A stretch of 64,000 nucleotides of DNA from Fulvitalea axinellae (lineage in GTDB: Bacteria > Bacteroidota > Bacteroidia > Cytophagales > Cyclobacteriaceae), in contig NZ_AP025316.1 in NCBI RefSeq assembly GCF_036492835.1, positions 310,001 through 374,000 of the forward strand, in the 5' to 3' direction. The translations under genes and the position numbers were made by a program. Position 1 is the first letter of the stretch; the number at the start of each line of letters is the position of its first letter. A model generated the notes under the pieces. The model saw only the letters and a program-made list of their open reading frames with translations, did no database searches and had not been told where the DNA came from. Of the stretch, positions 11,661 to 62,142 are shown in pieces.

Positions 11661-12977
11661 ATGAATCGAAGAATACTATCCCTTGCCGTTCCGAATATCA
11701 TCAGTAATGTTACCGTCCCTTTGCTGGGGCTGGTGGATATGGCGCTATTGGGGCATCTGGAATCGGAGGCCTATTTGGGAGCCATTTCTTTGGGCGGAAT
11801 GGTGTTTAACCTGCTGTATTGGGGTTTTGGCTTCTTGCGGATGGGTACCGCAGGCTTTTCGGCCCAAGCTTTCGGAAAAGAGGATTGGGACGAATCGGGT
11901 TTGGTAATGGCCCGTTCATTGTCGTTGGGTTTGGCTATCGGTATCGGCCTGATTCTGTTAAGAACACCGATTGGTAATTTGTCTTTCGGTCTTTTGCAAG
12001 GCGGGGAGGACGTATTGCGCTGGGGGCGTTCCTATTACGATATCCGGATTTTTGCGGCGCCGGCTACCATCGGCACTTACGCTTTGGTAGGTTGGTCCGT
12101 GGGAATGCAAAATACCCGTGTGCCTATGGCCGTAACGGTGTTGAGCAATGTACTGAATATAGTTTTTAGCGCAATTTTCATCTACGTTTTCGACCTAAAG
12201 TCCGATGGGGCGGCTTACGGTACGGTGCTGGCGCAATATGGCGGGCTTATTTTGGGCGTTTACGCATTACGAAGAAAATACGCCTTTGCGTGGAAGTGGC
12301 CTGATTGGGGGAAAGTGCTGGAACGTGTGGCGCTGAAGCGTTATTTCTCTGTCAACAGGGATATTTTTATCCGTACAATGTGCCTAATCGCCGTATTCAA
12401 TTACTTCACTTACGCTTCGGCAGGCTTGGGCGATACGCTGTTGGCCGCTAACGCTTTGTTACTTCAGTTTACGTATTTCTTCTCTTATCTGATCGACGGA
12501 TTCGCCTTTGCGGCGGAAGCCTTGGCGGGACGATATATGGGCGAAGGAAATCTGGATAAAGTTAAACAAGCTGTTAAAGTGCTGTTCGTTTGGGGACTTG
12601 GCCTTTCTTTGGCCTTTAGTGGCGTGTACGCATTGGCGGGAGAAGGGATTCTTTCTTTGCTGACATCCAATGCTAAGGTACTCCAAGCTGCTCATCCATA
12701 TTTGATCTGGACATGGCTTATCCCGATTCTGGGCTTCGCTTCTTACTTGTGGGACGGGATTTTTATCGGGGCCACGGCCGGCCGGCAGATGATGTTGAGC
12801 ATGATGGTCGCTTCGTTGCTGGTTTTCTTTCCGGTGTATTTCTCCCTGAAAGGAATATGGCCAAATCACGCTTTGTGGGCGGGACTTAGCGCTTTTTTGT
12901 TTGCGCGTGGTGTACTGCAAACCTTTATGGCGAAAGTTGCGGTATATGGGAAGTTAGAGGCCGTTCAGAGTAAATAA
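11661..12977 (+). CDS. MATE family efflux transporter
   Basis: The product is a 438-aa integral membrane protein with about 12 hydrophobic segments. The N-terminal LAVPNIISNVTVPLLGLVDMALLG motif is typical of the MATE/DinF-NorM superfamily, which expels cationic drugs or metabolites in exchange for Na+ or H+. The two halves show the expected pseudo-repeat (the second half begins near residue 225 with an RDIFIRTMC helix). An upstream in-frame TTG at 11634 is rejected because it lies inside the predicted promoter -7 box. The DinF-like subgroup is likely from the short N-terminus. The substrate is unknown. Confidence 0.92.
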   Translation: MNRRILSLAVPNIISNVTVPLLGLVDMALLGHLESEAYLGAISLGGMVFNLLYWGFGFLRMGTAGFSAQAFGKEDWDESGLVMARSLSLGLAIGIGLILLRTPIGNLSFGLLQGGEDVLRWGRSYYDIRIFAAPATIGTYALVGWSVGMQNTRVPMAVTVLSNVLNIVFSAIFIYVFDLKSDGAAYGTVLAQYGGLILGVYALRRKYAFAWKWPDWGKVLERVALKRYFSVNRDIFIRTMCLIAVFNYFTYASAGLGDTLLAANALLLQFTYFFSYLIDGFAFAAEALAGRYMGEGNLDKVKQAVKVLFVWGLGLSLAFSGVYALAGEGILSLLTSNAKVLQAAHPYLIWTWLIPILGFASYLWDGIFIGATAGRQMMLSMMVASLLVFFPVYFSLKGIWPNHALWAGLSAFLFARGVLQTFMAKVAVYGKLEAVQSK

Positions 12978-13094
12978 ACTACTCGGAAATGATTTAATTG
13001 TCTAGGATTTAAAAAAATATTATTCTGGATCACACTCTTCCCGAATAAAATAAAAAGATAGACTTAGGGTTAAATCCAAAGCAGCTTACAGGCA

Positions 13095-13152
13095 AAAAAA
13101 CCGTTTGAGGACACTCATCATCTTTATGATGGGTTTTATCAAACGGTTTTTT
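13095..13152. terminator. Bidirectional terminator, MATE and convergent small genes
   Basis: A 14-bp perfect stem (13095-13108 with 13139-13152) with A-run and T-run edges encloses a second small hairpin (CATCAT/ATGATG). It lies between the end of the MATE gene and the end of the convergent 110-aa gene. Confidence 0.85.
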
Positions 13153-13173
13153 CTGTTCCGGATTAGGGGACAG

Positions 13174-13506
13174 CTAAAGTGGAATGCCTGCGAAATCGGT
13201 TTGCGAGGCTTCGATGCGGAGGTTTCTGATTTTGTGGCTATGGTCAGAGATAAGGGCGCGGAACTCAAATGGGCAGTCAACGCAACGCTCTCTGCTGGAA
13301 TATACGGGACGCACCATTAGGTCGAAGCATCCGTAACCGGCCACTTCACGGAAGTCTTCGTCGTTGATGGGGCCTTTTTCGTCGATGTGAATATGCTTGA
13401 TGAGGGTCATTTCAATACGGCCCTCCAAGGGAGTAAAGGCGGGGAGTTGTTCGCGGTCTAAAAATTCATAGATGGCTTTCGTCATTCTTTGTTCATGTAG
13501 ATTCAT
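13174..13506 (-). CDS. Hypothetical 110-aa protein
   Basis: A small soluble protein of 110 aa, acidic in the middle (HIHIDEKGPINDEDF), with two cysteines in a CVDC motif near residue 75-78 and no signal peptide or membrane segment. I do not recognise a family. Its start overlaps the end of the upstream 86-aa gene by 14 bp, so the two are probably co-transcribed and translationally coupled. It ends 22 bp before a strong bidirectional terminator, which supports it being a real transcribed gene. The CxxC pair could bind a metal, but one pair alone is weak evidence. Confidence 0.55.
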   Translation of the reverse strand: MNLHEQRMTKAIYEFLDREQLPAFTPLEGRIEMTLIKHIHIDEKGPINDEDFREVAGYGCFDLMVRPVYSSRERCVDCPFEFRALISDHSHKIRNLRIEASQTDFAGIPL

Positions 13507-13753
13507 GGCTTAAAAGATTATCGTGATCACTTGGTTTCCTTTGCGTATCACACCGCAAAGTTGATTCCCAAAATGATCTCCAATACTTTTTTAACCAACA
13601 ATCTTTACTGTGTTCCATAGTGTAAGGTACGTTTTCCGAAGGATCGGAAGGGGTGTTGTCGGAAGGCTCGAAGTGATGGAGTACGGTTTTTATTTCGAAG
13701 AGTTCCTCAAGGCCGGAGAGGAAAAAACGGGTCGGATTTTTTTGGCTTTCCAT
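13493..13753 (-). CDS. Hypothetical 86-aa protein
   Basis: An 86-aa soluble protein with a Ser/Pro/Asp-rich linker in the middle and an aromatic, basic C-terminal half. No signal peptide, membrane segment or known motif is visible. It is the first gene of an apparent two-gene unit with the 110-aa protein (14-bp overlap). Evidence that it is real is the overlap and the shared terminator; coding bias is not decisive. Confidence 0.45.
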   Translation of the reverse strand: MESQKNPTRFFLSGLEELFEIKTVLHHFEPSDNTPSDPSENVPYTMEHSKDCWLKKYWRSFWESTLRCDTQRKPSDHDNLLSHEST

Positions 13754-14516
13754 AGTGACAGGTTTGAGGTTTGTTGTTGAAAATATACCTTTTAATATTC
13801 TTTATATCAAAAATATAAATCTAATACTTTCAAAAAACATATTATTTATTCTCTTATATGGAAAATAAAATCGATATAGGGTTATAATTTGACAAGCTTC
13901 GACCTTCCTGTATTTTTCAACGAAGAAAGATATACGCATACCGGTTATCATTTAAGAATATGAACACCTTTATCGACCGATAGCTTTTCGTTTTGGTTAT
14001 GGCCGGTAATTGCAGGTCGAATTGATTTTGGCCGTTTTTCCTTTATCCGTCTACAATAAAATTTCCTTAAAAAATATTTTTCACGGATAATATAGTACTG
14101 GCTATATCGATCGGTTTGCGTTGTGCCTAGACGCTTATTTTTTAATCAGAAAATTAATCGCTTTGAGTGTGGAATGAGTCTTTCTTGATTATCGTGTGAT
14201 TTCATCCCAGAAATAGGGGCGAATGCCTTATTAAGGGGGTAATCGTTTAGCTTAGGGTCTACTTTAGTAGGCAGGTGATAATATTGAATATGAAATAGCC
14301 GTATTTTTTTGTCATTAATTCATTTAATCACATACTTTAAGACTCCTTTTTAGACGACTTCCCATGTTGGCTTATGGGGAAGTCGGTGATTCAGTTTGTA
14401 TAAACGATTTAGTATTACGGAAATAGTGTGGAGTTTCCGTGATGCGTAATGGTGTTTTGGAGGTGGCTTAACTACGAGCGGAACTGTTTATGAGAAAATT
14501 TTAAGTATAGGCGCCT
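13754..14516. other. Intergenic region upstream of ECF-FecR system 1
   Basis: About 760 bp with no convincing gene. It contains an 11-bp inverted repeat with one bulged G at 14355-14385 (CGACTTCCCAT and its complement) that lacks a T-run and could be a regulatory hairpin. No clean TAnnTTTG box was found. Confidence 0.5.
14355..14385. promoter_or_regulatory. Hairpin-forming inverted repeat upstream of ECF gene
   Basis: CGACTTCCCAT (14355-14365) and its near-perfect complement (14374-14385, one bulged G) form a stem with an 8-nt loop 130 bp before the ECF start. Without a T-run it is more likely an operator or leader structure than a terminator; this is position-based inference. Confidence 0.35.
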
Positions 14517-15101
14517 ATGTATGGTGACGATTTCTATCTGGAAAGGTTAAGGGAAGGAAGCCTGGTCGCTTACGAATATTTCTTCAATCGCTATAGTGGC
14601 GTGTTGTTCGGGTATGCTTTTCACTTGCTTCAGGACAGACAGGCGGCGGAAGACCTGGTGCAGGATGTATATTTAAAACTTTGGAACAATAAGGCAAAGC
14701 TGAGGCCCAGTGCGTCGTTGAAACCGTATCTTTTCCGTAGCGCTTTTAACGCTTATATGGATATGCGCAGACATTTGGCCGTAAGGGAGAAGTTTGACCG
14801 GCGTTTTTTTGTGGAACCGGAACGGACATCGGACGATAACGCCGATAGTCCCATGATAATAACCGAGATGGGCGAGCGCATAACGGAGGCTTTGGATACT
14901 TTGACCGAGAGCCAAAGGGCCGTTTTTGTGAAGTGTAAGATGGAAGGAAAGAAATATAGTGACGTGGCAGAAGAAATGGGGGTCTCTATAAAAACCGTGG
15001 AAGCCCATATGACCAAGGCTAAGAAAAAGTTGGGCGTCGCTCTGCGTGATTACGCTCCGGCAATAACGGTTGTGTTGTTGTTGGGACGTGATTTTTTATG
15101 A
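14517..15101 (+). CDS. ECF RNA polymerase sigma factor (FecI type), system 1
   Basis: A 194-aa ECF sigma factor. The sigma-2 region (~20-85) has YFFNRYSGVLFGYAFHLL then the acidic AEDLVQDVYLKLW core-binding motif. The sigma-4 region (~125-180) has LTESQRAVFVKCKMEG, a helix-turn-helix (YSDVAEEMGVSIKTVEAHM) and KAKKKLG. It should be held inactive by the FecR protein encoded 110 bp downstream and released when the STN-bearing SusC1 receptor is occupied. It likely activates the susCD genes that follow. The C-terminus ends in a short hydrophobic segment (ITVVLLLGRDFL), slightly unusual for the family. Confidence 0.93.
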   Translation: MYGDDFYLERLREGSLVAYEYFFNRYSGVLFGYAFHLLQDRQAAEDLVQDVYLKLWNNKAKLRPSASLKPYLFRSAFNAYMDMRRHLAVREKFDRRFFVEPERTSDDNADSPMIITEMGERITEALDTLTESQRAVFVKCKMEGKKYSDVAEEMGVSIKTVEAHMTKAKKKLGVALRDYAPAITVVLLLGRDFL

Positions 15102-16613: not shown

Positions 16614-19600
16614 ATGAATGATTTTTACAAAACTCCTTTCGTTTTACGGCGAAAGGCAGGATTTCTTTTGTTTTTATTTTTGATGATTACCATTGTCAGC
16701 TCATCGGCAGTGGCCGAAAAACGGATAAAGGTGAGCCTAAACTTCTCTTCTCAGCCACTGGAAGAAGTGGTGAGGGAGATAGGTAGACAGGCGAATAAAA
16801 AAGTTCTTTATAACAATTGGCACTTGAGCCGTTACAGTACGGTGACGATTGAAGGAACCTTTTACTTTGACGAGGCCTTAAAAAAAGTTTTCGAAGCTTC
16901 GGACCTTGAGTATAAGGTGATTAAGAACCATATAGTTGTAAAGAAGAAAAAAGCGAAGAAGGCGCCTCTGGAAGTCAAAACAGTAGAGGTTCAGCAACAA
17001 ACTCAGAAAGTCACGGGAAATGTGACCGATAAAGAAGATGGCGGAGGGTTGCCTGGAGTCAGTGTAGCTGTAAAAGGGACTACCCGTGGTATGGTGACTG
17101 ACGTAAACGGAAAGTTTTCGTTGGAGGTGGAGCCCGAGGATATTCTGGTATTCAGTTTTGTAGGTTATAAAAACCAGGAGATCAAAGTTGGTAACCAAAC
17201 GAATATTAATGTGTCTTTGGAGCCGGACCTTGAGCAACTGGAAGAAGTTGTGGTAATCGGATACGGTACTCAGAAGAAAAAGCATATTACGGGAGCGGTG
17301 GCTACACTGAAAGGCAAGCAATTGGTGAAAGCTCCAGCCACTAATATGGCTACGGCCTTGACCGGAAAGCTTCCGGGGGTTATCACCAGACAAACTTCCG
17401 GGGTGCCTGGAGCCGAAGGTATCAGATTGAGAATTAGGGGGGTAACATCATATAAAAACCATGATAAAGGCGAACAAAACCCTTTGGTAATTGTGGACGG
17501 AATCGAGCGTCCGTTCTCAAGGCTTGATCCGAACGAGATTGCTGATATTAGCGTACTTAAAGACGCCGCCGCAACGGCTATTTACGGCAGGCGTGGAGCA
17601 AACGGCGTACTTTTGATCACCACGAAACGTGGCCAGGAAGGGAAGCCGTCGTTTGAGTACAGCGGGCGCTTCAGCATTCAGAAAAGAACCCGTGAGGTGG
17701 AAGCGATGAGCGCTCCGGAATTCGTACGTTACTATAACGAAGCTAAGATAAACGACGGCGAGGACCCTGCCTTCAGTGACGAAGTGGTGGAAGCGTATCA
17801 ACGTGGGGAACTTCCGGGATATAATTGGCTAGACGCCCTATTGGACGAAACCGCACCTCAACAGCAACATAATTTTTCTGCGTCAGGCGGTTCCAAAAAA
17901 GTCAAATACTTTGTTTCGTATGGATACTTAGACCAAGAAGGCCTTTACTCTACGGTAGGGTATAACCAGAATAACCTAAGAACGAATATTGATACGAAAT
18001 TTAGCGATCGATTAAGCTTTTCGCTTGACCTCGCCGGAAGAATAGAGGAGAGGTCAAATACTTCGTATGATAGGGGTATTTATGAGACTGCAATTTATGC
18101 CCAACCAATTTTAAATCCTTTGCCGAATGTGCCGGGTGTACCCGACGCATTGGGATATAATGGTTTTAGCGGTTCACCGATTGGACAGGCGGAAAGGAGC
18201 GGTACGAAGGACCGGAATAAAACCTATTTCCAGTCGAATATATCTTTCAAATACGATATCCCCGGCGTGAAGGGGTTAAGTGCCAAGGCATTGTTTTCTT
18301 ATGATATTCTGAATGAGAGGGAAACAAATTTTAATAAGCCCTATACATGGTATGAATATAACGAAACAACTGACAAATTTACGGAAACCAAAGCTTTCGA
18401 AAATAATGATATCCTATCAAAGGAGTATAGGAAGCAATGGGTAGAAAAGACACTTCAGTTGAACCTTTCGTATAACAGGACTTTCGGAGATCACAACGTT
18501 AGCGGTTTGGTATTGTTGGAAAGGCTCGAGAATGATTTTAATGAAATTTCTGGAGAGCGAAAGGGATATATTTCCACATCGATCCCGTACTTTTTTGCCG
18601 GAGACGAAGGTAATGACAAGAACAACTCGAAAGCGACTGAATCAGCCTCTTTAGGTTGGGTAGGAAGGCTTTCCTACAACTATAAGGACAAGTATATGAT
18701 CCAATTCAATTCCCGAATTGATAAGTCCTTCAAGTTTGACGAAGAGTATCGTACGGGATTTTTTCCTTCTGTTTCGGCGGGATGGCGTATATCATCCGAA
18801 CCGTTTATGAAAGCGTTACCTTTTGTAAGTAACCTTAAGGTTCGCGGTTCGTGGGGACAGGTTGGTAATGACAATGTGCCTTCATTTAAATATCTCGCTA
18901 CATACAGCTTTAGAGATGGAACAGTAATGGACGGGATTTGGAAACCGGGTATTAAAAACGATGGAATACCAAACCCGACTATTACTTGGGAAACGGTGAC
19001 CAGCCAGAATATCGGTATTGACGCCGGATTCTTTGAGAATAAGTACGAGTTCGAACTTGACTATTATTGGAGAACAACGACGGATATCCTCGATAAACCG
19101 GACGCTGTGGTTCCGGCCACATATGGTGGAGATATCGCTGAGCAACCTCTCGGGGAATTTGACTCATGGGGTATTGACGCATTGGTTCGCCACCGTAACC
19201 AAATCGGGAAATTGAAATATTCCGTATCTGCCAATGTAAGTTGGTATGATAATAAAGTGGTGAAGAAGGCGGAGTCTGAAAATGTTAACCCCGCATTATC
19301 GGCCATTGGCAGAAGAGTGGGACAACGTAAGGGCTATATTTCCGAAGGGTTGTTCCAGACTCAGGAGGAAATAGACAATCACGCCAAGCAACCTTGGGGC
19401 GAAGTTTTTCCAGGCGATATCAAATACAAGGATATCAACGGCCGTGACGAAGAAGGTAATCTGACAGGAAAGCCTGATGGTAAAATCAATGGTGATGACA
19501 AGACCATAATCGGTACCAGTGGATTCACCAATTTCGTATATGGTTTTTCGCTTAGCGCAGAATATGAAGGGTTTGACTTTCAAGCGAATTTCCAAGGAGC

Positions 19601-39390: not shown

Positions 39391-40407
39391 ATGGACCGTA
39401 AGATAATTTTCTTTTTTGCCATACAGTTCTTTTGCCTAGGCCACACGCTGAAAGGGCAATCTGACATAGGCTTCAAGCAGTATTACCAAACGCCTCAGGC
39501 CTTGAATCCGGCTTATGCCGGTTCGAATCCTTATTGGTCGTTTAGTATGGGTTACGGTGCGGTAAGTTTGGGCCAAGGTCTTCGTGCGGATAATTACCTA
39601 GTCGCAGCCAACTTCGTTTTTCCATACGACCAAATGAAGAACTACGGAGTCAACGCTTTAAAAGGAAGGCGTCCTGACATCTTTGTCAGAAGCAATGCCA
39701 AATCAATGGGGCAGGGAAAGAGCTACCGCTCGGGTATGGGTATTTCCGCGCATAGACAAAGCAGTGGCTGGGTGAGCCAAACCCAATTGCAAGTAGCTTA
39801 CGCTATTCATGTTCCTTTGAGCAGAAAGCTGAGAATTTCGGGTGGCGCAGGGTTTGTCCTGAGCGGTTTCGAGGCCGACCAAGACGGGATATTTGTTCGC
39901 GATGAATTGGATCCCGTTTATAGGTCTTTTGTGGAGAATGGAGGGGCTAACACTGCTTACGGTATTAGAGTGGGCTTGGCATTGCATGGCGAAAACTTTT
40001 ACGGGGGATACGCTTTTTCCAGAAAAGTGGGGGAGAGCGGTTTTAATCTGGGAAATGTTTCGGTATTAAACGTTCATAGAATTTCCGGTGGATATCGACT
40101 TCCGCTAGCTGGTAACACCGACTGGTTAAATTCGTGTATGCTAAATGTATACGAGAAAAAGACTACCGTGGCTGTTGTGTCGCAAATAGAGTATAAAGAG
40201 CGAATAAGAGCCGGGGTTATTGTCAGTCCCGACGAGTATTTTAGCTTGATAGCGGGAGTGTTGATACAACAGCGTGGTCGAGTCGATATTACGGTGTCAC
40301 AACCAATGGGAGGAGAAGGCGGCATAAGTGACAACAAGACGCTATTGGAACTGGGATTAAGTGTTTTCTGCTTCAGGTATCAGGGACAGAAAAGACGCTT
40401 TTGGTGA
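39391..40407 (+). CDS. PorP/SprF-type T9SS outer-membrane protein
   Basis: A 338-aa outer-membrane beta-barrel-like protein with a signal peptide (~1-22). The family signature near the N-terminus reads KQYYQTPQALNPAYAGSN. The remainder is alternating hydrophobic strands. PorP/SprF proteins assist or anchor cargo of the type IX secretion system, and SprF-type members are paired with large type-B-tail adhesins such as SprB. The gene starts 3 bp after the stop of the giant protein, so it is almost certainly its dedicated partner. It has no T9SS tail itself. Confidence 0.93.
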   Translation: MDRKIIFFFAIQFFCLGHTLKGQSDIGFKQYYQTPQALNPAYAGSNPYWSFSMGYGAVSLGQGLRADNYLVAANFVFPYDQMKNYGVNALKGRRPDIFVRSNAKSMGQGKSYRSGMGISAHRQSSGWVSQTQLQVAYAIHVPLSRKLRISGGAGFVLSGFEADQDGIFVRDELDPVYRSFVENGGANTAYGIRVGLALHGENFYGGYAFSRKVGESGFNLGNVSVLNVHRISGGYRLPLAGNTDWLNSCMLNVYEKKTTVAVVSQIEYKERIRAGVIVSPDEYFSLIAGVLIQQRGRVDITVSQPMGGEGGISDNKTLLELGLSVFCFRYQGQKRRFW

Positions 40408-53992: not shown

Positions 53993-54027
53993 TTTGCGTA
54001 ACAAATAGAATAAAGCCGTTACCTTTG
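53993..54027 (+). promoter_or_regulatory. Promoter for the cobalamin-riboswitch transcript
   Basis: TTTG at 53993-53996 and TACCTTTG at 54020-54027 match the Bacteroidota -33/-7 boxes with a 23-nt spacer, slightly longer than ideal. Transcription would start near 54034, at the beginning of the riboswitch. Confidence 0.5.
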
Positions 54028-54205
54028 CGCCGGATTGGTTTTTATGCCTTGAAGGTATAGAACTAAGAGGGAATCCGGTGAAAATCCGGAACAGAACCCG
54101 CTGCGGTAATCCCCTTTTAATGTCCTTAGCACATGCCACTGGATTTCTCCGGGAAGGCGCTTGGGATTGGGGTAAGTCCGAAGACCTGCCGTCCGCTATC
54201 GATAA
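54028..54205 (+). promoter_or_regulatory. Cobalamin (B12) riboswitch
   Basis: The conserved core of a cobalamin riboswitch is visible in order: GGTTTTTATGCC (~54037), AAGAGGGAATCCGGTGAAAA (54065-54084), AACAGAACCCGCTGCGGTAA (54091-54110), GCCACTGGAT and GGGAAGGCGC (54135-54160), and the B12 box AGTCCGAAGACCTGCC (54175-54190). Such RNAs bind adenosyl- or methylcobalamin and switch off the downstream gene. Here the next gene encodes a 1530-aa T9SS-secreted protein, not a BtuB receptor. Confidence 0.93.
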
Positions 54206-54272
54206 CTTTTGCCTTCGGGAGTTAAGGCGAACGGGTATTTTTTTAGCGAAGGTCTCGTTTCCTTTTCTGGAT

Positions 54273-54303
54273 TTGCCCTTTTTTCTCTCCCGGGCAATTT
54301 TTT
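54273..54303 (+). terminator. Possible expression-platform terminator of the B12 riboswitch
   Basis: A TTGCCC/GGGCAA stem (54273-54278 with 54292-54297) with a 13-nt T/C-rich loop is followed by six Ts and lies between the riboswitch and the start codon. It would allow ligand-dependent premature termination. The stem is only 6 bp, so translational control is the alternative. Confidence 0.55.
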
Positions 54304-54317
54304 CAAAACATCTATCC

Positions 54318-57300
54318 ATGAAGATCTTTACAAAATACCAAAGCCTCGCTTTGATTGTCTTTTGGGCGTTTATTGTCCAAAATGCGTTCGGGTTAAACGC
54401 TACAGAGGCAGAACCTATTATTATGAAAGCCGGTAGCCAGACCGTGCAAGTGTCTGGGCCTGTGTTGTTTTATGATGACGGTGGTTCCAACGGAAAATAT
54501 TCCAACGGATTCAATGGGCAAATTACTTTCACTCCCGCCACAAGTGGCCAGAATATCAAGATCGATTTCAAAGAGTTCAAACTGGGAACTTTCGGCTACG
54601 ACGTTATGAAAATCTACCATGGGGCCGAAGTGAATGATGATGCGTTAGTGGGCGAATTCAATACTGACAAAAAAGCCGGACTGATAAAGTCAACCGCTAC
54701 CGATGGCTCGTTGACTGTGGTTTTTAAAGGCGCCGGTTGGGGAGACACTTATCTTGACCAAGGCTGGAAAGCAGAGGTAAGTGCGTTTACGCCATCGCCT
54801 GTCGCCTTCAAGGACGCTGTGGTTTCACAAGAATTTCCGAAGTATGTCACTAAAGGTCAAAAAGGTGTGAAGCTTTTTAAGGCTACGCTAAACTTTAGCG
54901 GTGAATCGGGCTCGTTGGTTCTGGACAAACTTAATTTTTCGGCTACGGGAAGTACGAACACTTCAAGCGTGACCGAAGCCCGTCTTTATATTTCGGATAA
55001 AGAGGATGGATTTGATGACGCTACCCTTTTTGGAGAGACTGTGAACCCGTTCGCCGAAACATTTTCCTTTTCAGGAAACGTAGAGATCAAGGCCGAAGGG
55101 CAACGTTATTTCTGGCTTGTATGCGACATTTCGGCCGATGCGTCATACGGTGACAAAATAGACGTCTCGCTTGTTTCACTGAAATTTGGGGATAAAACCG
55201 TAGCTATTGAAAACGGCATGGCCGAAGGATTCCGTGAAGTTGCGCCCGGTATGAAAGGCGTGTATACGCTTGATAAAAGTAACGGCGATTTCACCACTTT
55301 CAAAGAACTGGTAGAAGCTTTGGAAGCCCGTGGCTTGGAAGGTCCGGTGACCGTTAATGTCGCTTCTGGGGAGTATGAGGAGTTTGTAGTTTTGCCGGAA
55401 ATTAAAGGCGCATCCGCTCAGAATACGCTTACAATCCGTTCGGCTACGGGCAAAGCGAGAGATGTAAAAATCATTAATAAAGACGCCAGCGCCGACGCCG
55501 ACGGACTTTTTATTATTCACGGCGCCGACTTCCTTACGCTTGAATACCTCACTTTTGAAAGCGTATTGTCTGATCTGAAAGCCGTCGTGTTTATGGACAA
55601 TGTCAGCTGCGACAATGTCTTTCGTAATAATGTGGTTAAAGCTCCTTTGACTGTGGATTACTCAAAGGACATTGGCCTGTTGGAGACAAAAGCCATTAAC
55701 GAAGAAGGAAAAAACAACGATCGCTTTCTCTTGGAAAACAACAAATTTATAGGCGGATATATTGGTCTTGATTTGGGCGGAACGGGCTATGTCAAACTTA
55801 CTAAAGAAACTGGACACAGAATCATAAACAACCGTTTTGAGAACCAGGGATCCAAATCGATTTATTTGAATAATCAGGACGGGGCCCTTGTGGAGAATAA
55901 TTATATTTTCAATAACGCTTCTACAAAACGTGGATTTCAGGGAATGGACCTGTACCGTTGTATTGGTAACTCGGTAATTCGGGGCAACAGGGTTGTTCTT
56001 GAAACAAAAAATGAGGCTATAGGTGTGGAAATGCGACCTGTTTCGGGTTCGGAAACATCACCAGCCAAATTTTATAATAATATGGTTTCGTTGAAATCGG
56101 TAAACGCTTCTTCCGTTGGCGTTTTGCTTGATGACAAATGCGAGTACCTTACCCTCGCTCATAACACGGTTCACATTTATGGAGATACCGAAGGCACGGC
56201 ATTAAAAGTGGAAGGCAGAAGTAATGAAGCGCCGGTAAAAACCTTTGGTATTAATAATATCTGGAATACCGTATCGGGCACGGCTGTTTGGCTTTATAGA
56301 GACGTGTTCGCTGATGATTTCCGTTTTGAAAATAACGCCGTAAACGGTAGTGTCGCTATTGCGAAAATAGGTGATACGGAACATAAAACTATTGGCGAAT
56401 GGAACGCTTTGTCTAATGTGGAATCCAATATTTCCGAAACTATCGAGTTTGTATCCGATAAAAATCTGCAACTGATGAAAACCGGAAACCTGCAGAACGG
56501 AAAACAAGCGACGGGTATCGGTAAAGATATTCACGGCGATTCACGGGCCGATATACCTACCATAGGCGCTGATGAGTACAGGACGCCAGACTTTAACGCT
56601 CCTGAATTCACGGAAGCATTTCCTGCCGTTACGGCGGAGGCTTGGAATTTGGTGATCGCCGATGTGAAATCTACGGAAAATGCCAATCTGTTTGTAGGCG
56701 TTTTGGAAAAAGGGGCGGAAGCTCCCACGTCAGAGGAATTGAAATCTAAAAACGGTTTTGTTTTCGCAATCACTGAGGAACTTACGGCAAATATTGAAGC
56801 CAATGTGGAGTTAAATACTCTTTCCCAAAATACGGAATATGATATTTATTTTCTGCTTGAGGATTATTCAAGAAATAAATCCGACGTGGTAAAGAGAACT
56901 GTCAAAACGCCTTTCAAACCTACCCAAGTCAGTGATTTTGAAACTGAAGCGATAAAGGACGGCGATCTTTTGTCGCAAGGAACTTCGACATTCAGAAATA
57001 TAACGGTTAAAACCGAAAACCCGGATAATAAGAAAAATACCTATGCCTCAATAGCCCAAAACCAAACGGCTACGGTCCGCTTTACTAACACTGTTGACGG
57101 GATTAAGTGCAAAGGTTTTTATTATAAAGGAGGAGCCGTTGAGCTGGCCGTCGTTTCGAAATCGGGAACGTCGGAAAAGGAAAGCCTGCCGGCCATCGAT
57201 TCTTGGACATTTGTGGATATTCGCAAGAAAGGAGATATTCTGGGATTTGATTTGACGACCGCTGATGTGGTGGTGGATATTGACGGAATTCACGGACTTC

Positions 57301-58910
57301 CTCCGGTTCTGACATTAGTTAAACTGGAGACTATCCGTGTAAGCAAAGGCGAGACAATAAACGTTTCACCTGAGGTTACAGGTGGGTTTAAGCCTTATGT
57401 TTATTCGTGGAAAAAGCTCTCCGATAATACCGTTTTCGAGACATCAGGCCTTGGAGACAGTCCAGAGCGCACCGAAATTTACAAACTGACGGTTACCGGC
57501 GATGAGGGTGCGGTGGTTTCGCAATATTTGAGAGCGGAAGTTAGCCGTGAAAGAGAAAGGACCAGTTTTGAGGAATTAGTGTTGGCAAAAGAAAGCTTCT
57601 GGCGTGGCAATCCCGGAGCTACCGGCTATACCCAAGGATTTGTAAGTGGCGGTTATCACTTTTCGAATACTTATATCGAAAACATCAACACTTGGGGCGG
57701 TTTTTCTTATTCCAATAAAACGAATAAGGACGAGTCCGGAGGATTGAATAATCAGTTCACTTCCGTAACCGGAAAAGGTGCTCTTGATACGGATAATTAT
57801 GTAGTGGCTTATACCATCGGCGACCCGTGCGAGATGAAAGTGACGCATTCGCCTGACGGTGACCAGATAGCCGGTATGTATGTCACGAATAACACTTACG
57901 CTTTAAACTCAATGCTTAACGGCGATCAATTTGCCGAGGATAAGTTTGGAGGTGATTCGGGAGACGAACCCGATTGGTTCAAACTGGAAGCGGAAGGTTT
58001 TGATTCAAATGGAAAAAGTACAGGAAAGGCAGAATTCTATCTCGCGGATTTTCGTTTTGAGAATAATGAAAAGGATTATATCGTAAAGGATTGGCGATGG
58101 TTCGATCTTAGTGGATTGGGCAAAGTCAGTAAAGTAAGGTTCCGCCTCACGTCTTCAGATACGGGTAAGAACGGAATGAATACCCCTGCGTATTTTTGCA
58201 TGGATGAGGTGAATAAGCTGGAACAAAAAATCGATTTCCCGGAACCTTCGGCGCTTACCTATGGCGATATGGTGGAGCTTCCCGTCAACTCTTCCGCCAA
58301 TAAAGTCCTTACGTTTTCTTCGTCTGACCCAAGTATTTTGGAAATCGTAAACGGAAAAGCGACTATTAAAAAGGCGGGTACGGTTACGGTTACCGCCAGC
58401 CAAGCCGGTGACAAGGATTATCTGCCGGCAACTGAAGTAACCCGTAATTTTAGTATCGATAAAGCTACGCTTACGGTGTTTGTAGAGAAATTCGAAAAAC
58501 CCAATATCGACTACCATTTTGAAGGATTCGTTTATGACGAAGACGTTAGCGCGCTTAGTGGCCAGCTCACTTACGGTTATGATGATTCCAACGACCTGTT
58601 TTTCTCCGGCTTCACATCCGATAATTATGATATCGCATATAATACGGAAGGATTGACAGTAATCACGGGTATCGGTTCCGATACGCGGATAGCCTTATAT
58701 CCGAATCCCGCTACGGAATTTATCCGTCTTAATATACCCGAAGGGCAATATAGCCTGAAGGTTTATGACCGTGCGGGCAATACCGTATTTGAGAGTTCCG
58801 ACTATTCTGCCGATAGTAAACTGGATGTTCAGAGCCTTACTACAGGGATATATATACTGAAAGCGCAGAATCAGAAAAACACATTTGCTCTCAGATTTTC
58901 TGTGAGATAA
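54318..58910 (+). CDS. B12-riboswitch-controlled secreted multidomain protein with DUF4465-like domain and T9SS tail
   Basis: The open frame extends upstream, but a GTG at 54078 falls in the riboswitch core; ATG 54318 begins a signal peptide (MKIFTKYQSLALIVF..., cut near residue 25), giving 1530 aa. Domains: CUB-like (~37-160, FYDDGGSNGKYSNGFNG), a BNR-associated-like beta domain (~161-310), a right-handed beta-helix (~313-753, many ENNxF/NNRF turns), a fibronectin-like module (~761-868), a PKD-like region (~998-1075), a DUF4465-like domain (~1090-1296, FVSGGYHFSN, WGGFSYSNKTN, DNYVVAY), Ig/MBG-like repeats (~1303-1446) and a T9SS type A tail (~1455-1530, ALYPNPATEFI). DUF4465 proteins recur, as I recall, near Bacteroidota B12 uptake genes. 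A surface cobamide-binding or B12-sparing role is inferred; catalytic activity of the beta-helix is equally possible. Confidence 0.85.
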   Translation: MKIFTKYQSLALIVFWAFIVQNAFGLNATEAEPIIMKAGSQTVQVSGPVLFYDDGGSNGKYSNGFNGQITFTPATSGQNIKIDFKEFKLGTFGYDVMKIYHGAEVNDDALVGEFNTDKKAGLIKSTATDGSLTVVFKGAGWGDTYLDQGWKAEVSAFTPSPVAFKDAVVSQEFPKYVTKGQKGVKLFKATLNFSGESGSLVLDKLNFSATGSTNTSSVTEARLYISDKEDGFDDATLFGETVNPFAETFSFSGNVEIKAEGQRYFWLVCDISADASYGDKIDVSLVSLKFGDKTVAIENGMAEGFREVAPGMKGVYTLDKSNGDFTTFKELVEALEARGLEGPVTVNVASGEYEEFVVLPEIKGASAQNTLTIRSATGKARDVKIINKDASADADGLFIIHGADFLTLEYLTFESVLSDLKAVVFMDNVSCDNVFRNNVVKAPLTVDYSKDIGLLETKAINEEGKNNDRFLLENNKFIGGYIGLDLGGTGYVKLTKETGHRIINNRFENQGSKSIYLNNQDGALVENNYIFNNASTKRGFQGMDLYRCIGNSVIRGNRVVLETKNEAIGVEMRPVSGSETSPAKFYNNMVSLKSVNASSVGVLLDDKCEYLTLAHNTVHIYGDTEGTALKVEGRSNEAPVKTFGINNIWNTVSGTAVWLYRDVFADDFRFENNAVNGSVAIAKIGDTEHKTIGEWNALSNVESNISETIEFVSDKNLQLMKTGNLQNGKQATGIGKDIHGDSRADIPTIGADEYRTPDFNAPEFTEAFPAVTAEAWNLVIADVKSTENANLFVGVLEKGAEAPTSEELKSKNGFVFAITEELTANIEANVELNTLSQNTEYDIYFLLEDYSRNKSDVVKRTVKTPFKPTQVSDFETEAIKDGDLLSQGTSTFRNITVKTENPDNKKNTYASIAQNQTATVRFTNTVDGIKCKGFYYKGGAVELAVVSKSGTSEKESLPAIDSWTFVDIRKKGDILGFDLTTADVVVDIDGIHGLPPVLTLVKLETIRVSKGETINVSPEVTGGFKPYVYSWKKLSDNTVFETSGLGDSPERTEIYKLTVTGDEGAVVSQYLRAEVSRERERTSFEELVLAKESFWRGNPGATGYTQGFVSGGYHFSNTYIENINTWGGFSYSNKTNKDESGGLNNQFTSVTGKGALDTDNYVVAYTIGDPCEMKVTHSPDGDQIAGMYVTNNTYALNSMLNGDQFAEDKFGGDSGDEPDWFKLEAEGFDSNGKSTGKAEFYLADFRFENNEKDYIVKDWRWFDLSGLGKVSKVRFRLTSSDTGKNGMNTPAYFCMDEVNKLEQKIDFPEPSALTYGDMVELPVNSSANKVLTFSSSDPSILEIVNGKATIKKAGTVTVTASQAGDKDYLPATEVTRNFSIDKATLTVFVEKFEKPNIDYHFEGFVYDEDVSALSGQLTYGYDDSNDLFFSGFTSDNYDIAYNTEGLTVITGIGSDTRIALYPNPATEFIRLNIPEGQYSLKVYDRAGNTVFESSDYSADSKLDVQSLTTGIYILKAQNQKNTFALRFSVR

Positions 58911-59289: not shown

Positions 59290-62142
59290 ATGGATTTTTA
59301 TTTCACCGGCATGTACAGAATAGCGAGTTTAGTTTTTATAATATGTTTTGGCTTTGGGGCTGGAGCCTTTGGGCAATCCGGCAAGGATATTCAGCGTATC
59401 CGAAAAGAGGCTCTGGAAGCTTTTAAGCCTAGGTTTACGGTTTTTTATCGGACTTCGAATCCCAAAATGTCGCTCCGTCCCAGCAAATATGTGGACGGTT
59501 ATGGTATCCCGACTTGGATGTCTACCCAAGGCGACGAAAACCTAAGGGACGGCGGAAGGAGCGCCAGTCATTACGGTGACGGTTTCGATTCCAGAATATT
59601 GGAAGCCAAGATGGATAAGCGTACGGCTAACAGCTATCTGTCGGCCAAGGGCGTGGATGTTAAAGGGAAAGTACGAACCGAAGATGGAACGGTTTATTGG
59701 ACTTTCCCGGAACATGAGTTGTTCCGGTTGGAAGCTAAAGTGTCTGAAAACGAGGACGGAACTTTGGGCTTGAGGTTTAAGCTTCACCCCAAAAAGGACG
59801 GTTACTACTCGGTGGCGTATACAGGCGCACCGTCTTATGCGCTTAAGGCCGTGGACGAGATTTGGCAACCGATGATTTGGAGCGAGAAGCGGTTTCCGAA
59901 TGGTCCGCATATGACGTTGGCATTCCGGGCGCCTTTACCGACGACACTGGTTGAGCGAAAGGGCATAACATACGGCGTTTTGGCCCATCCCGACGAGTTT
60001 CCTTTTGATCCTTTGCCTACGGTGTCGAACAGCAGGTTTGGCATAGCGGTCCGAAACGCCGAAGGAAAGGCGCAGGCCCAACTGTTCGCCCCGGTGATGG
60101 GCGGTACGGGTTCGAAGATGGCCAAAGGCGAGGATTTCGAATTCTCCGTTGTATTGGCCGCTCTTCCGGGAGATTTGACTGAGGCTTATGAGAGCCTGGC
60201 CCGTAACCATTACGGTTTTAGGGATTATAGGCGCAACAGTATTTCCTCGCTCAACAAGACGCTGGACCGTATGGTCAATTACGCCAATTCATCGTTTAGC
60301 CAGTTTGTCGATTCTCTGAAAGGTTTCGGTTATTCCACCGACGTGCCGGGCGCTGTGAAAAACGTTTCGAGTCTGAACGCTTTGGAAATGGCCATGGTGC
60401 AGGACAATCCCGATATGTTTTGGGAAAAGGCGTATCCGATGGTGGAGTATATGCTGTCAAGGGAAAAATTTCTGTTTAGCCTGGATCCGAAACAAAAGAA
60501 CCAACACCCGTCGAGGCGGTTGCTTGGGCCTGTGGCGCCGGTATCTGAGTTGGTGGCTTTGCATGATATCTTCGGCGGGGAAAACCCGTTTCTGATTCAG
60601 ATGGCCGAAGAGAACTTTTTGAAAACAAGGGTTAAAAACCTGGATGTGGCCGAGCGCGAGGATAACTGGATTAACGCGCTGTTCCTTTATAAATCGACCA
60701 AAGACGAGAAATATCTGACGAAAGCGAAATCAGGTGCCGACCAATACCTTAGGAATAGAGTGGAAAGAAAGCAAACCGATTTTAATGACGAATACGGCAA
60801 GAGTTTCTTTTTTTGGATCGACTTTACCAACCGGTGGATAGAACTGGTGGAACTTTATGAACTGACGGGCGAAGAGCGTTATCTGGAAGCCGCCCGTGAA
60901 GGCGCGCGGCGCTACGCGCTGATGTGTTGGATGGCTCCGAAAATACCCGAAGGCGATATTTTGGTAAACAAAGGAGGGAAAGCCCCGGCCTATTGGTATT
61001 TGAAATCGAAAGGGCATGAGCAGATGAGCGTACCGGAAACCAATGTACCGGCTTGGCGTATGTCGGAGATTGGCCTTACTTCGGAATCGTCGGGAACATG
61101 CTCCGGACACCGGGCTGTTTTTATGGCCAACTTCGCCCCGTGGATGTTGCGTTTGGGCAAATATTGCAATGATGATTTCCTGATGGAGATCGCCAAGGCG
61201 GCGGTAATCGGTCGTTATCGCAACTTTCCGGGTTATCATATCAACACCGCCCGCACAAACGCCTATGAGTCGGCGGACTATCCGCTTAGGGCGCACAAAA
61301 AGCTGAGCGTAAATTCGTTCCACTATAACCATATTCTTCCGATGGCCTCTATGCTTTTGGATTATCTGGTGACGGACGTATGGGCCAGGTCCAATGGTGA
61401 GATCAGTTTCCCGTCGACCTATATCGAGGGTTACGCCTATATGAAAAACAAGTTTTACGGACATGAGGAAGGGCGGTTTTATTCCGAAAAAGGTGTACGC
61501 CTCTGGATGCCGGAAGGACTTTTGGAAATCGATAATGTTGAGCTGAATTATATAGCGGGACGTAAAGAAGGCAAACTGTTTTTGGCCTTTAGCAACCAAA
61601 GTCCGGAGGACGTAAAAACTACCGTAAGGATCAACCCCGTATTGGTGCGCCATCTGGAAAAAAGTGGCTATACCGTATACACGGACAATAAATTGACACA
61701 AGAGAAGAAGAGTCTGGGCCGCGCCGGCTTTACGGTAAACGTGAAAGCGAAGGGCCTAACGGCTATAGTGATCGAAGGTGTGGATTTCAAATCGGAATTG
61801 CAGAACAAACTATCTCAAGAAACAAACCTGACGGCGGACAACACCGAGTATAAATCCTTGGAATTTGGCGGAGCGAAAGCCATGCTTTTCAAATTGGGCG
61901 GATTTGCCCCGAGAGCCTATATCTACCTCAGCGATGACGATAGCCAGTACTCTTCCGTGAATTTGCATTATAAAAAGCCAAACGGAAAAACCGTGACGAT
62001 CAAAGACGCTATCTACCCCTTTGAATTTACGGTGGAATTGGATACCGAGTCTCCCGTTCCCGAGTTTTGGTTTAGCGCTACGGATAAAGCTGGTAAGCGT
62101 GACGTTTCTAAGAAGTTTTCTTTTGGTGGTGTGGTGAATTGA
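59290..62142 (+). CDS. Large secreted protein, possible polysaccharide-degrading enzyme
   Basis: A 950-aa protein with an N-terminal signal peptide; ATG 59311 (MYRIASLVFIICFGFGAGAFGQ) is a plausible alternative start. Residues ~30-300 look beta-rich, ~310-720 strongly alpha-helical with paired-helix spacing (for example EDNWINALFLYKSTKDEKYL, ELYELTGEERYLEAAREGARRYAL) as in alpha/alpha-toroid glycosidases or polysaccharide lyases, and ~730-950 are beta-rich again. Candidate polar residues include YHINTARTNAYESADYP (~650) and NSFHYNHILPM (~675). No family can be named with confidence. The convergent sulfatase suggests a sulfated polysaccharide substrate. No T9SS tail is evident. Confidence 0.7.
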   Translation: MDFYFTGMYRIASLVFIICFGFGAGAFGQSGKDIQRIRKEALEAFKPRFTVFYRTSNPKMSLRPSKYVDGYGIPTWMSTQGDENLRDGGRSASHYGDGFDSRILEAKMDKRTANSYLSAKGVDVKGKVRTEDGTVYWTFPEHELFRLEAKVSENEDGTLGLRFKLHPKKDGYYSVAYTGAPSYALKAVDEIWQPMIWSEKRFPNGPHMTLAFRAPLPTTLVERKGITYGVLAHPDEFPFDPLPTVSNSRFGIAVRNAEGKAQAQLFAPVMGGTGSKMAKGEDFEFSVVLAALPGDLTEAYESLARNHYGFRDYRRNSISSLNKTLDRMVNYANSSFSQFVDSLKGFGYSTDVPGAVKNVSSLNALEMAMVQDNPDMFWEKAYPMVEYMLSREKFLFSLDPKQKNQHPSRRLLGPVAPVSELVALHDIFGGENPFLIQMAEENFLKTRVKNLDVAEREDNWINALFLYKSTKDEKYLTKAKSGADQYLRNRVERKQTDFNDEYGKSFFFWIDFTNRWIELVELYELTGEERYLEAAREGARRYALMCWMAPKIPEGDILVNKGGKAPAYWYLKSKGHEQMSVPETNVPAWRMSEIGLTSESSGTCSGHRAVFMANFAPWMLRLGKYCNDDFLMEIAKAAVIGRYRNFPGYHINTARTNAYESADYPLRAHKKLSVNSFHYNHILPMASMLLDYLVTDVWARSNGEISFPSTYIEGYAYMKNKFYGHEEGRFYSEKGVRLWMPEGLLEIDNVELNYIAGRKEGKLFLAFSNQSPEDVKTTVRINPVLVRHLEKSGYTVYTDNKLTQEKKSLGRAGFTVNVKAKGLTAIVIEGVDFKSELQNKLSQETNLTADNTEYKSLEFGGAKAMLFKLGGFAPRAYIYLSDDDSQYSSVNLHYKKPNGKTVTIKDAIYPFEFTVELDTESPVPEFWFSATDKAGKRDVSKKFSFGGVVN

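Follow-up and report, generated by a model that had tools for sequence, protein, structure and literature searches.

A 64,000-nucleotide (nt) stretch of the Fulvitalea axinellae genome (contig NZ_AP025316.1, positions 310,001 to 374,000; hereafter the window) contains a cobalamin riboswitch and, behind it, a gene encoding a protein of 1530 amino acids (aa) that joins a DUF4465 domain, the domain of the BtuJ proteins, to a C-terminal sorting tail of the type IX secretion system (T9SS). The protein is probably a non-lipidated cobamide-capture protein of the BtuJ (DUF4465) family which is repressed by B12 and exported by the T9SS. Chance is excluded for this finding by the scores and by the riboswitch/gene pairing that is conserved in relatives. 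DUF4465 as a B12 binder and the riboswitch control of its operons in Bacteroides thetaiotaomicron are already published (PMC13398666, PMC12751083); new are the delivery, by means of a T9SS tail, and the architecture. The following features were found, all on the + strand:

54018..54207, +, cobalamin riboswitch aptamer (RF00174; Rfam match)
54020..54027, +, TAnnTTTG at the 5' end of the aptamer, putative Bacteroidota-type -7 promoter element (motif match)
54208..54231, +, hairpin followed by a T-run just 3' of the aptamer, candidate expression platform (consensus match only)
54318..58910, +, 1530-aa T9SS-tailed DUF4465 protein (open reading frame (ORF), Pfam, NCBIfam)
54318..54392, +, N-terminal signal peptide, residues ~1-25 (read by eye)
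54450..54782, +, CUB-like domain, residues ~45-155 (blastp alignment to the relatives L051, L052 and L054)
54894..55196, +, BNR_assoc_N-like domain, residues 193-293 (Pfam, 24.9 bits, just below the cut-off of 25)
55251..56522, +, right-handed beta-helix, residues ~312-735 (Pfam, model, alignment with 10 relatives)
56598..57572, +, fn3/Ig-like linker, residues ~761-1085, poorly modelled (by eye and alignment to L051)
57687..58211, +, DUF4465, the putative BtuJ-type B12-binding domain, residues 1124-1298 (Pfam, BtuJ1 match, model)
58695..58904, +, T9SS type A sorting tail, residues 1460-1529 (Pfam and NCBIfam)

A cobalamin riboswitch precedes the gene

The initial annotation had read a cobalamin riboswitch from the letters alone and let it begin at 54028. 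Indeed, RF00174 matched 10 nt further upstream, from 54018 to 54207, with 106 bits (gathering threshold 31.5, E 1.6e-25) and over the full length of the model (1-189). It was the sole Rfam match at gathering threshold in the window and the top scorer of the three cobalamin riboswitches in the genome. The aptamer is separated by 110 nt from the 1530-aa ORF, which starts with ATG at 54318 and stops at 58910, in agreement with the gene described before. A longer ORF of 1610 aa, beginning with GTG at 54078, was rejected as the gene because it overlaps with the aptamer. TAnnTTTG was present at -2 to +11 nt from the aptamer start in 17/17 loci (85 nt scanned per locus) and in 56 of 3400 random 40-nt stretches from the same sources. 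Since the motif sits at the 5' end of the aptamer, the window aptamer probably opens the transcript. Sites matching the hairpin/T-run consensus numbered nine between 53900 and 59400, with 6.1 expected. In eight of 11 shorter relatives only 26-28 nt lie between the aptamer and the first ATG and there is, therefore, scant room for a terminator, an observation that carries no conclusion for the window. Genes near cobalamin riboswitches rank among the most B12-responsive ones in a rumen Xylanibacter (PMC11575231); the passages on this name no DUF4465 or T9SS protein. Judged by its sequence, the window gene would be repressed by B12.

The DUF4465 domain is related to BtuJ1

A domain that had only been said to resemble DUF4465 turned out to be a firm match: PF14717 covered residues 1124-1298 with 192.9 bits (cut-off 25, E 7.9e-57) and, in a comparison of PF14717 scores, the window domain (199.2 bits) exceeded the genome's own lipoprotein copy (180.7 bits). 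The nearest solved chains were BtuJ1 (9qpm, E 1.9e-24, and 9fct, E 9.5e-24) and D5EK51 (9hmu, E 2.5e-23), both of which were crystallised with B12 (PMC13398666, PMC12751083). B12 is bound by eight distant DUF4465 members, and a structure with B12 has been solved (PMC13398666); BtuJ1 and BtuJ2 of B. thetaiotaomicron are tight B12-binding vesicle lipoproteins from riboswitch-controlled operons (PMC12751083). A ColabFold model of residues 856-1320 had a mean pLDDT of 64.9, with 68-98 in the blocks over DUF4465 and low confidence for residues 856-1110. It showed the augmented jelly-roll and matched BtuJ1 (9fct) with E 2.5e-15, a TM-score of 0.79 by target length and a root mean square deviation of 3.7. 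The B12 contacts were compared at six BtuJ1 residues named in PMC12751083, whose numbering is used here although the two Asn numbers look swapped; four were identical and two were not. The four kept residues form hydrogen bonds to B12 in BtuJ1, Y146, N241, T242 and Y245, corresponding to Y1194, N1288, T1289 and Y1292 of the window protein, and these four are conserved between BtuJ1 and BtuJ2 (PMC12751083). The window DUF4465 domain would, accordingly, bind a cobamide.

The initial annotation had pictured a far larger, T9SS-delivered counterpart of the B12-capture lipoproteins BtuG and BtuH. The evidence favours such a counterpart, but the homologue is BtuJ, since DUF4465 is the BtuJ family. 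A counterpart of BtuG or BtuH was rejected because neither domain was found in the window protein by Pfam or by sequence comparison with the PDB: Pfam revealed no DUF5074/beta-propeller (BtuG) at E <= 1, and the BtuH structure 7BIZ was not among the eight solved sequences matched at E <= 0.01.

The protein carries a T9SS tail and a long N-terminal part

The T9SS tail that had been read from the sequence was found by both Por_Secre_tail (PF18962; residues 1460-1523, 43.6 bits) and TIGR04183 (39.2 bits, cut-off 23). The first 39 residues contain no Cys (by eye) and, therefore, the protein has no lipobox as found in the BtuJ lipoproteins. Export by the T9SS would be possible in the host: its genome (7.39 Mb in 15 contigs, 99.66% complete) encodes SprA (TIGR04189, 2461 bits), at which the search for T9SS genes was aimed, and a PorP/SprF protein was met in the scan of the window itself (39391-40407). 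Por_Secre_tail matched 61 times in the genome at E <= 0.001, 56 of these above the curated cut-off.

Between signal peptide and DUF4465, the beta-helix noted before was corroborated by Beta_helix (PF13229; residues 466-617, 27.9 bits, cut-off 25.9). The CUB-like domain stood in part: Pfam did not match CUB in the window protein, but residues 42-864 align with relatives whose CUB domains (PF00431) score 88-112 bits. The predicted model of the BNR_assoc_N-like region matched sialidase structures over ~170-180 columns, and no Pfam family matched the linker (residues ~761-1085). As a whole, the N-terminal model (mean pLDDT 71.6) had a loose likeness to GH87 and LnbX structures, with TM-scores of 0.22-0.35 by query or target length. 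Pfam found no enzyme family in the protein and, at E <= 1, no clostripain-type C11 peptidase (PF03415). The earlier idea of a B12-repressed surface enzyme thus has no support in the window protein, though a C11 peptidase is present in relatives. The long N-terminal part could act as an arm or as a docking device.

These modules bear on an unlikely alternative, namely that the protein is a B12-repressed surface adhesin or glycan-active protein whose beta-helix and sialidase-N-like domain bind or cut polysaccharide, while DUF4465 just senses or retains B12. It would fit the matches of the N-terminal model to GH87 and sialidase structures, the sulfatase gene and the two SusC/SusD-type pairs that are also present in the window, and the recurrence of the same modules in numerous further large frames of the order; the low TM-scores to GH87 and LnbX and the lack of a match to any enzyme family argue against it.

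Putative B12 uptake genes are located elsewhere in the genome

As the initial annotation had stated, no BtuB gene is adjacent: among the 21 of 27 window ORFs of >= 250 aa that were scanned with Pfam, no B12-uptake gene was found near the riboswitch-controlled gene. Three TonB receptors in these ORFs (at 16614, 25625 and 40701), the nearest 10.7 kb off, are of the CarbopepD_reg_2 type and lie beside SusD or DUF4249 genes. The transport partner had been expected elsewhere and, indeed, a second riboswitch operon, on contig C1, encodes a DUF5074 lipoprotein and another DUF5074 protein along with a BtuH-like lipoprotein and a TonB receptor. The BtuH-like lipoprotein (L004:8374-9480) matched 7BIZ, which is BtuH2 (PMC8941943), with E 1.5e-62. 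DUF5074 is the PF16819 propeller and has been linked to DUF4465 (PMC13398666). The first DUF5074 protein matched propeller chains, 9s6c for instance (E 1.9e-16), and, more weakly, YncE or surface-layer proteins. From its context it would be of the BtuG type, and the C1 receptor of the BtuB type. A further riboswitch (contig C5) precedes the gene of a 245-aa BtuJ-like lipoprotein.

CbiC, the one B12 synthesis gene of the pathway that was sought, was not found in the genome, and the B12-binding enzyme domain matched four times (three over the cut-off, two strong). The host is, therefore, likely a B12 user that scavenges the vitamin.

Relatives of the protein and their riboswitches

Within the same order, DUF4465 was found in 37 of 390 genomes including the own one, none of the others being from the window's family, and 35 of the other 36 also had a cobalamin riboswitch. 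A draw from the phylum revealed DUF4465 in 11 of 395 genomes, own included. The other frames of this draw had 254-414 aa, save three weak ones (one of 1866 aa at 26.3 bits and two of 732 aa under the cut-off), and giants are, therefore, not common. A scan of named genomes gave at least 506 relatives, of which the best 80 were used; having been ranked against a query that combined the window protein with seven relatives of its order, these are not a random sample. T9SS tails were searched for with a profile built from Pfam-confirmed tails, which matched 0/222 negative controls. Loci were available for 31 of the 47 matches of the order, and 27 of the 31 encode a tail, the window and the lipoprotein copy being included in the count. 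The tail was likewise present in 55 of the 80 best named loci; by title, 53 of these 55 belong to a Bacteroidota taxon, and the one Bacteroidota-titled locus without a tail, L052, has its 3' end cut by the contig. Tailed genes with intact 5' ends had a cobalamin riboswitch within 400 nt in 40 of 51 cases and upstream within the flank in 48 of 51. Distances between riboswitch and gene were matched by coordinates alone, with contig names unchecked, and agreed with direct Rfam scans of 14 loci.

The architecture was compared by blastp among 111 DUF4465 proteins. The part from CUB to beta-helix was found in L052 (42-864), L051 (22-864) and L054 (45-851), with 27-30% identity and E values from 4e-83 to 1e-62. 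Of this part, just the helix was found in a further 11 shorter proteins (966-1069 aa), which belong to Bacteroidales or Bacteroidia. The titles of four of the 11 mention yak, red deer or water buffalo, another four carry RUG/RUI names that we read as rumen, and three are uninformative. Since Pfam Beta_helix did not match L051, L052, L054 and L067, the helix in these four was assigned by the alignment and the model of the window protein. Homologues behind B12 riboswitches are, thus, present in other genomes: all 13 helix/DUF4465 relatives in other Bacteroidota have a T9SS tail and an upstream cobalamin riboswitch, the distance being 26-161 nt for 10 of them and 1.6-2.0 kb for three; L052, whose 5' end is missing, is left out here.

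The most surprising part are the relatives with a C11 peptidase. L051 (L051:2669-11740, 3024 aa) and L054 (L054:981-10454, 3158 aa) are intact giants with T9SS tails and are directly preceded by cobalamin riboswitches; L052 (L052:1-7242) amounts to 2414 aa and is open at both ends. Peptidase_C11 matched with 174.5 (L051), 178.6 (L054) and 183.2 bits (L052), and CUB repeats and several BNR_assoc_N copies are present in addition. The C11 domain of L051 matched clostripain (9cip) with E 3.7e-27, and the HGGG histidine and FDxCL cysteine, presumably the catalytic residues, are in register. The homology of ~820 residues (CUB to beta-helix) to these proteins, two of them directly behind riboswitches, raises the question of whether the window protein is one component of a machine for proteolytic B12 release that lacks its peptidase here, and docks to B12-carrier proteins as the C11 relatives may. 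We consider this still less likely than a role in adhesion or glycan binding, since the window protein itself has no peptidase domain. The idea that the B12-riboswitch-controlled, T9SS-secreted giants form a hitherto undescribed class of extracellular B12 piracy machines fares somewhat better, though it is doubtful as well: CUB and beta-helix would provide attachment to other cells, to the matrix or to B12-carrier proteins, C11, in the 3000-aa members, would free B12 by cutting the carrier and DUF4465 would catch it, with the window protein as a member without peptidase.

Other relatives differ in their tails or domains. Planctomycete DUF4465 proteins end in PEP-CTERM-like tails (L072, L087, L104, L115, L119, L126 and L129) or dockerin-like tails (L074, L079, L084, L085 and L100), both by eye, and matching by coordinates places a cobalamin riboswitch within 400 nt at all 12 loci. 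Among the 111 proteins, 13 have two or more DUF4465 domains (L116, L124, L065, L026, L031 and eight others). In many T9SS proteins of the order with ~540-570 aa, DUF4465 is followed by a conserved domain of ~230 aa (L011:2062-2751 and nine similar stretches) that Pfam did not match at E <= 0.01. No solved structure matched this domain with an E below 0.3; profile comparison linked it weakly to the domain of the BtuH-like type (hhalign 72.6%, E 3.2e-5). G192, a genome of the same order, has two cobalamin riboswitches before DUF4465 genes (L049:5248-12493 and 12808-14674). The first precedes a 761-aa DUF4465/Ig protein, in which Pfam found no sorting tail, and an ORF of 1456 aa. This ORF carries a BtuH-like domain (43% identity to the BtuH-like protein of the window genome), DUF4465, Ig domains and a sorting tail and, therefore, joins two different B12-linked folds in one chain; the other precedes a 419-aa tailed DUF4465 protein.

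Proposed function of the protein

Under low B12, the riboswitch would be open and the protein expressed. The signal peptide would lead it across the inner membrane and the T9SS, with the tail as sorting signal, across the outer membrane. With its CUB, sialidase-N-like and beta-helix modules as a possible spacer or attachment arm, the protein would then either stay at the cell surface or be set free, DUF4465 would grip the cobamide via the DE-helix tyrosine and the NTPAY loop, and the ligand would be handed over to the BtuG/BtuH/BtuB-type receptor from the second riboswitch operon.

Several observations weigh against this model. The leader folded no better than shuffled sequences (z -0.72; 25 of 100 shuffles equalled it), the gene has no transport neighbour, and ~1100 residues are without an assigned role. 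Furthermore, the N-terminal modules have no exclusive tie to B12: of 241 genomes of the order, 58 had matches to residues 26-1081, for the most part in large frames other than this one, a count in which at most a few candidates were scored per genome and modules were taken regardless of DUF4465 or riboswitch. Genes without a tail also lie behind riboswitches (16/23 within 400 nt, 20/23 within the flank); the riboswitch, therefore, goes with the DUF4465 domain and not with the export route. Finally, two B12 contacts are lost, Y97 of the AB-loop of BtuJ1 being replaced by L1143 and W78 by I1123, with W1126 three residues further; Trp78 is missing from BtuJ2, too (PMC12751083). These losses would suit a riboswitch-controlled scaffold whose DUF4465 has become purely structural and does not bind B12, the least likely of the alternatives, for the four hydrogen-bonding residues common to BtuJ1 and BtuJ2 are kept and the PF14717 score is above that of the genome's lipoprotein copy.

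Like the window protein, BtuJ1 and BtuJ2 (PF14717/IPR027828) have a DUF4465 domain with conserved B12 contacts, riboswitch control and BtuG/BtuH/BtuB-type genes in the genome. Unlike it, they are lipoproteins of ~250-300 aa, encoded in btu operons and found on vesicles, whereas the window protein has 1530 aa, a T9SS tail and CUB-like, sialidase-N-like and beta-helix modules and is encoded away from transport genes. BtuH2 (7BIZ) shares with it the riboswitch-linked B12 capture at the surface of Bacteroidota, which is predicted for the window protein, but has a different domain, and the genome encodes a separate BtuH-like lipoprotein. Gingipains, which are T9SS cargo, win haem from haemoglobin. 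By analogy only, they can be compared with the window protein, for they are large surface proteins of several domains that end in a sorting tail, as it would be, and with the C11 relatives as secreted cysteine proteases tied to cofactor capture; they differ from the window protein by the presence of a peptidase and by the cofactor, haem rather than B12.

DUF4465 proteins have been described as lipoproteins (>70%), the remainder having periplasmic signals (PMC13398666); the text of that paper mentions neither T9SS or type IX nor a peptidase. Among the papers listed on T9SS/B12, DUF4465 and clostripain/cobalamin we found no description of T9SS-exported or peptidase-fused DUF4465 members, a search outside of which most subscription journals lay and which is no proof of absence; the passage of PMC9723704 that came up for T9SS, vitamin B12 and riboswitch concerns a TonB transporter. 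B12 competition in Bacteroidota has so far been studied via gut lipoproteins. That a published B12-binding fold bears a T9SS sorting tail in many Bacteroidota, partly in long multidomain proteins marked by riboswitches, suggests an overlooked way for bacteria to grab B12 outside the cell; if exported as predicted, such proteins would act as a B12 trap that reaches far or can be released. Whether a protease assists the release of B12 can be tested directly on the C11-bearing relatives.

Origin of the gene and other genes of the window

A tree of 111 DUF4465 domains grouped the window domain with L050 (support 82) and placed it in a set of 20 (support 84) that also contains the giants and the shorter helix proteins. 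The relatives of the order were found in another group (26 of 29; support 96, starred), three stood apart, and the genome's own BtuJ-like lipoprotein was on a long branch without a firm place. Horizontal transfer of the window gene is possible but not shown, since the supports that place it are below 95. No plasmid relative was found by DNA matches. Protein matches were obtained in 10 plasmid records and covered just 5-17% of the query; the best was a DUF4465 protein of a Persicobacter plasmid, judged by eye to be a lipoprotein, and 12.7 kb of this plasmid contained no cobalamin riboswitch.

The next gene (59290-62142), 379 nt downstream of the one described here, encodes a 950-aa protein without a Pfam match at E <= 0.01. 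Between 31891 and 40407 lie the gene of a 2498-aa protein with a T9SS tail, NHL repeats and MBG_2 domains (nine stretches) and, immediately after it, the PorP/SprF gene.

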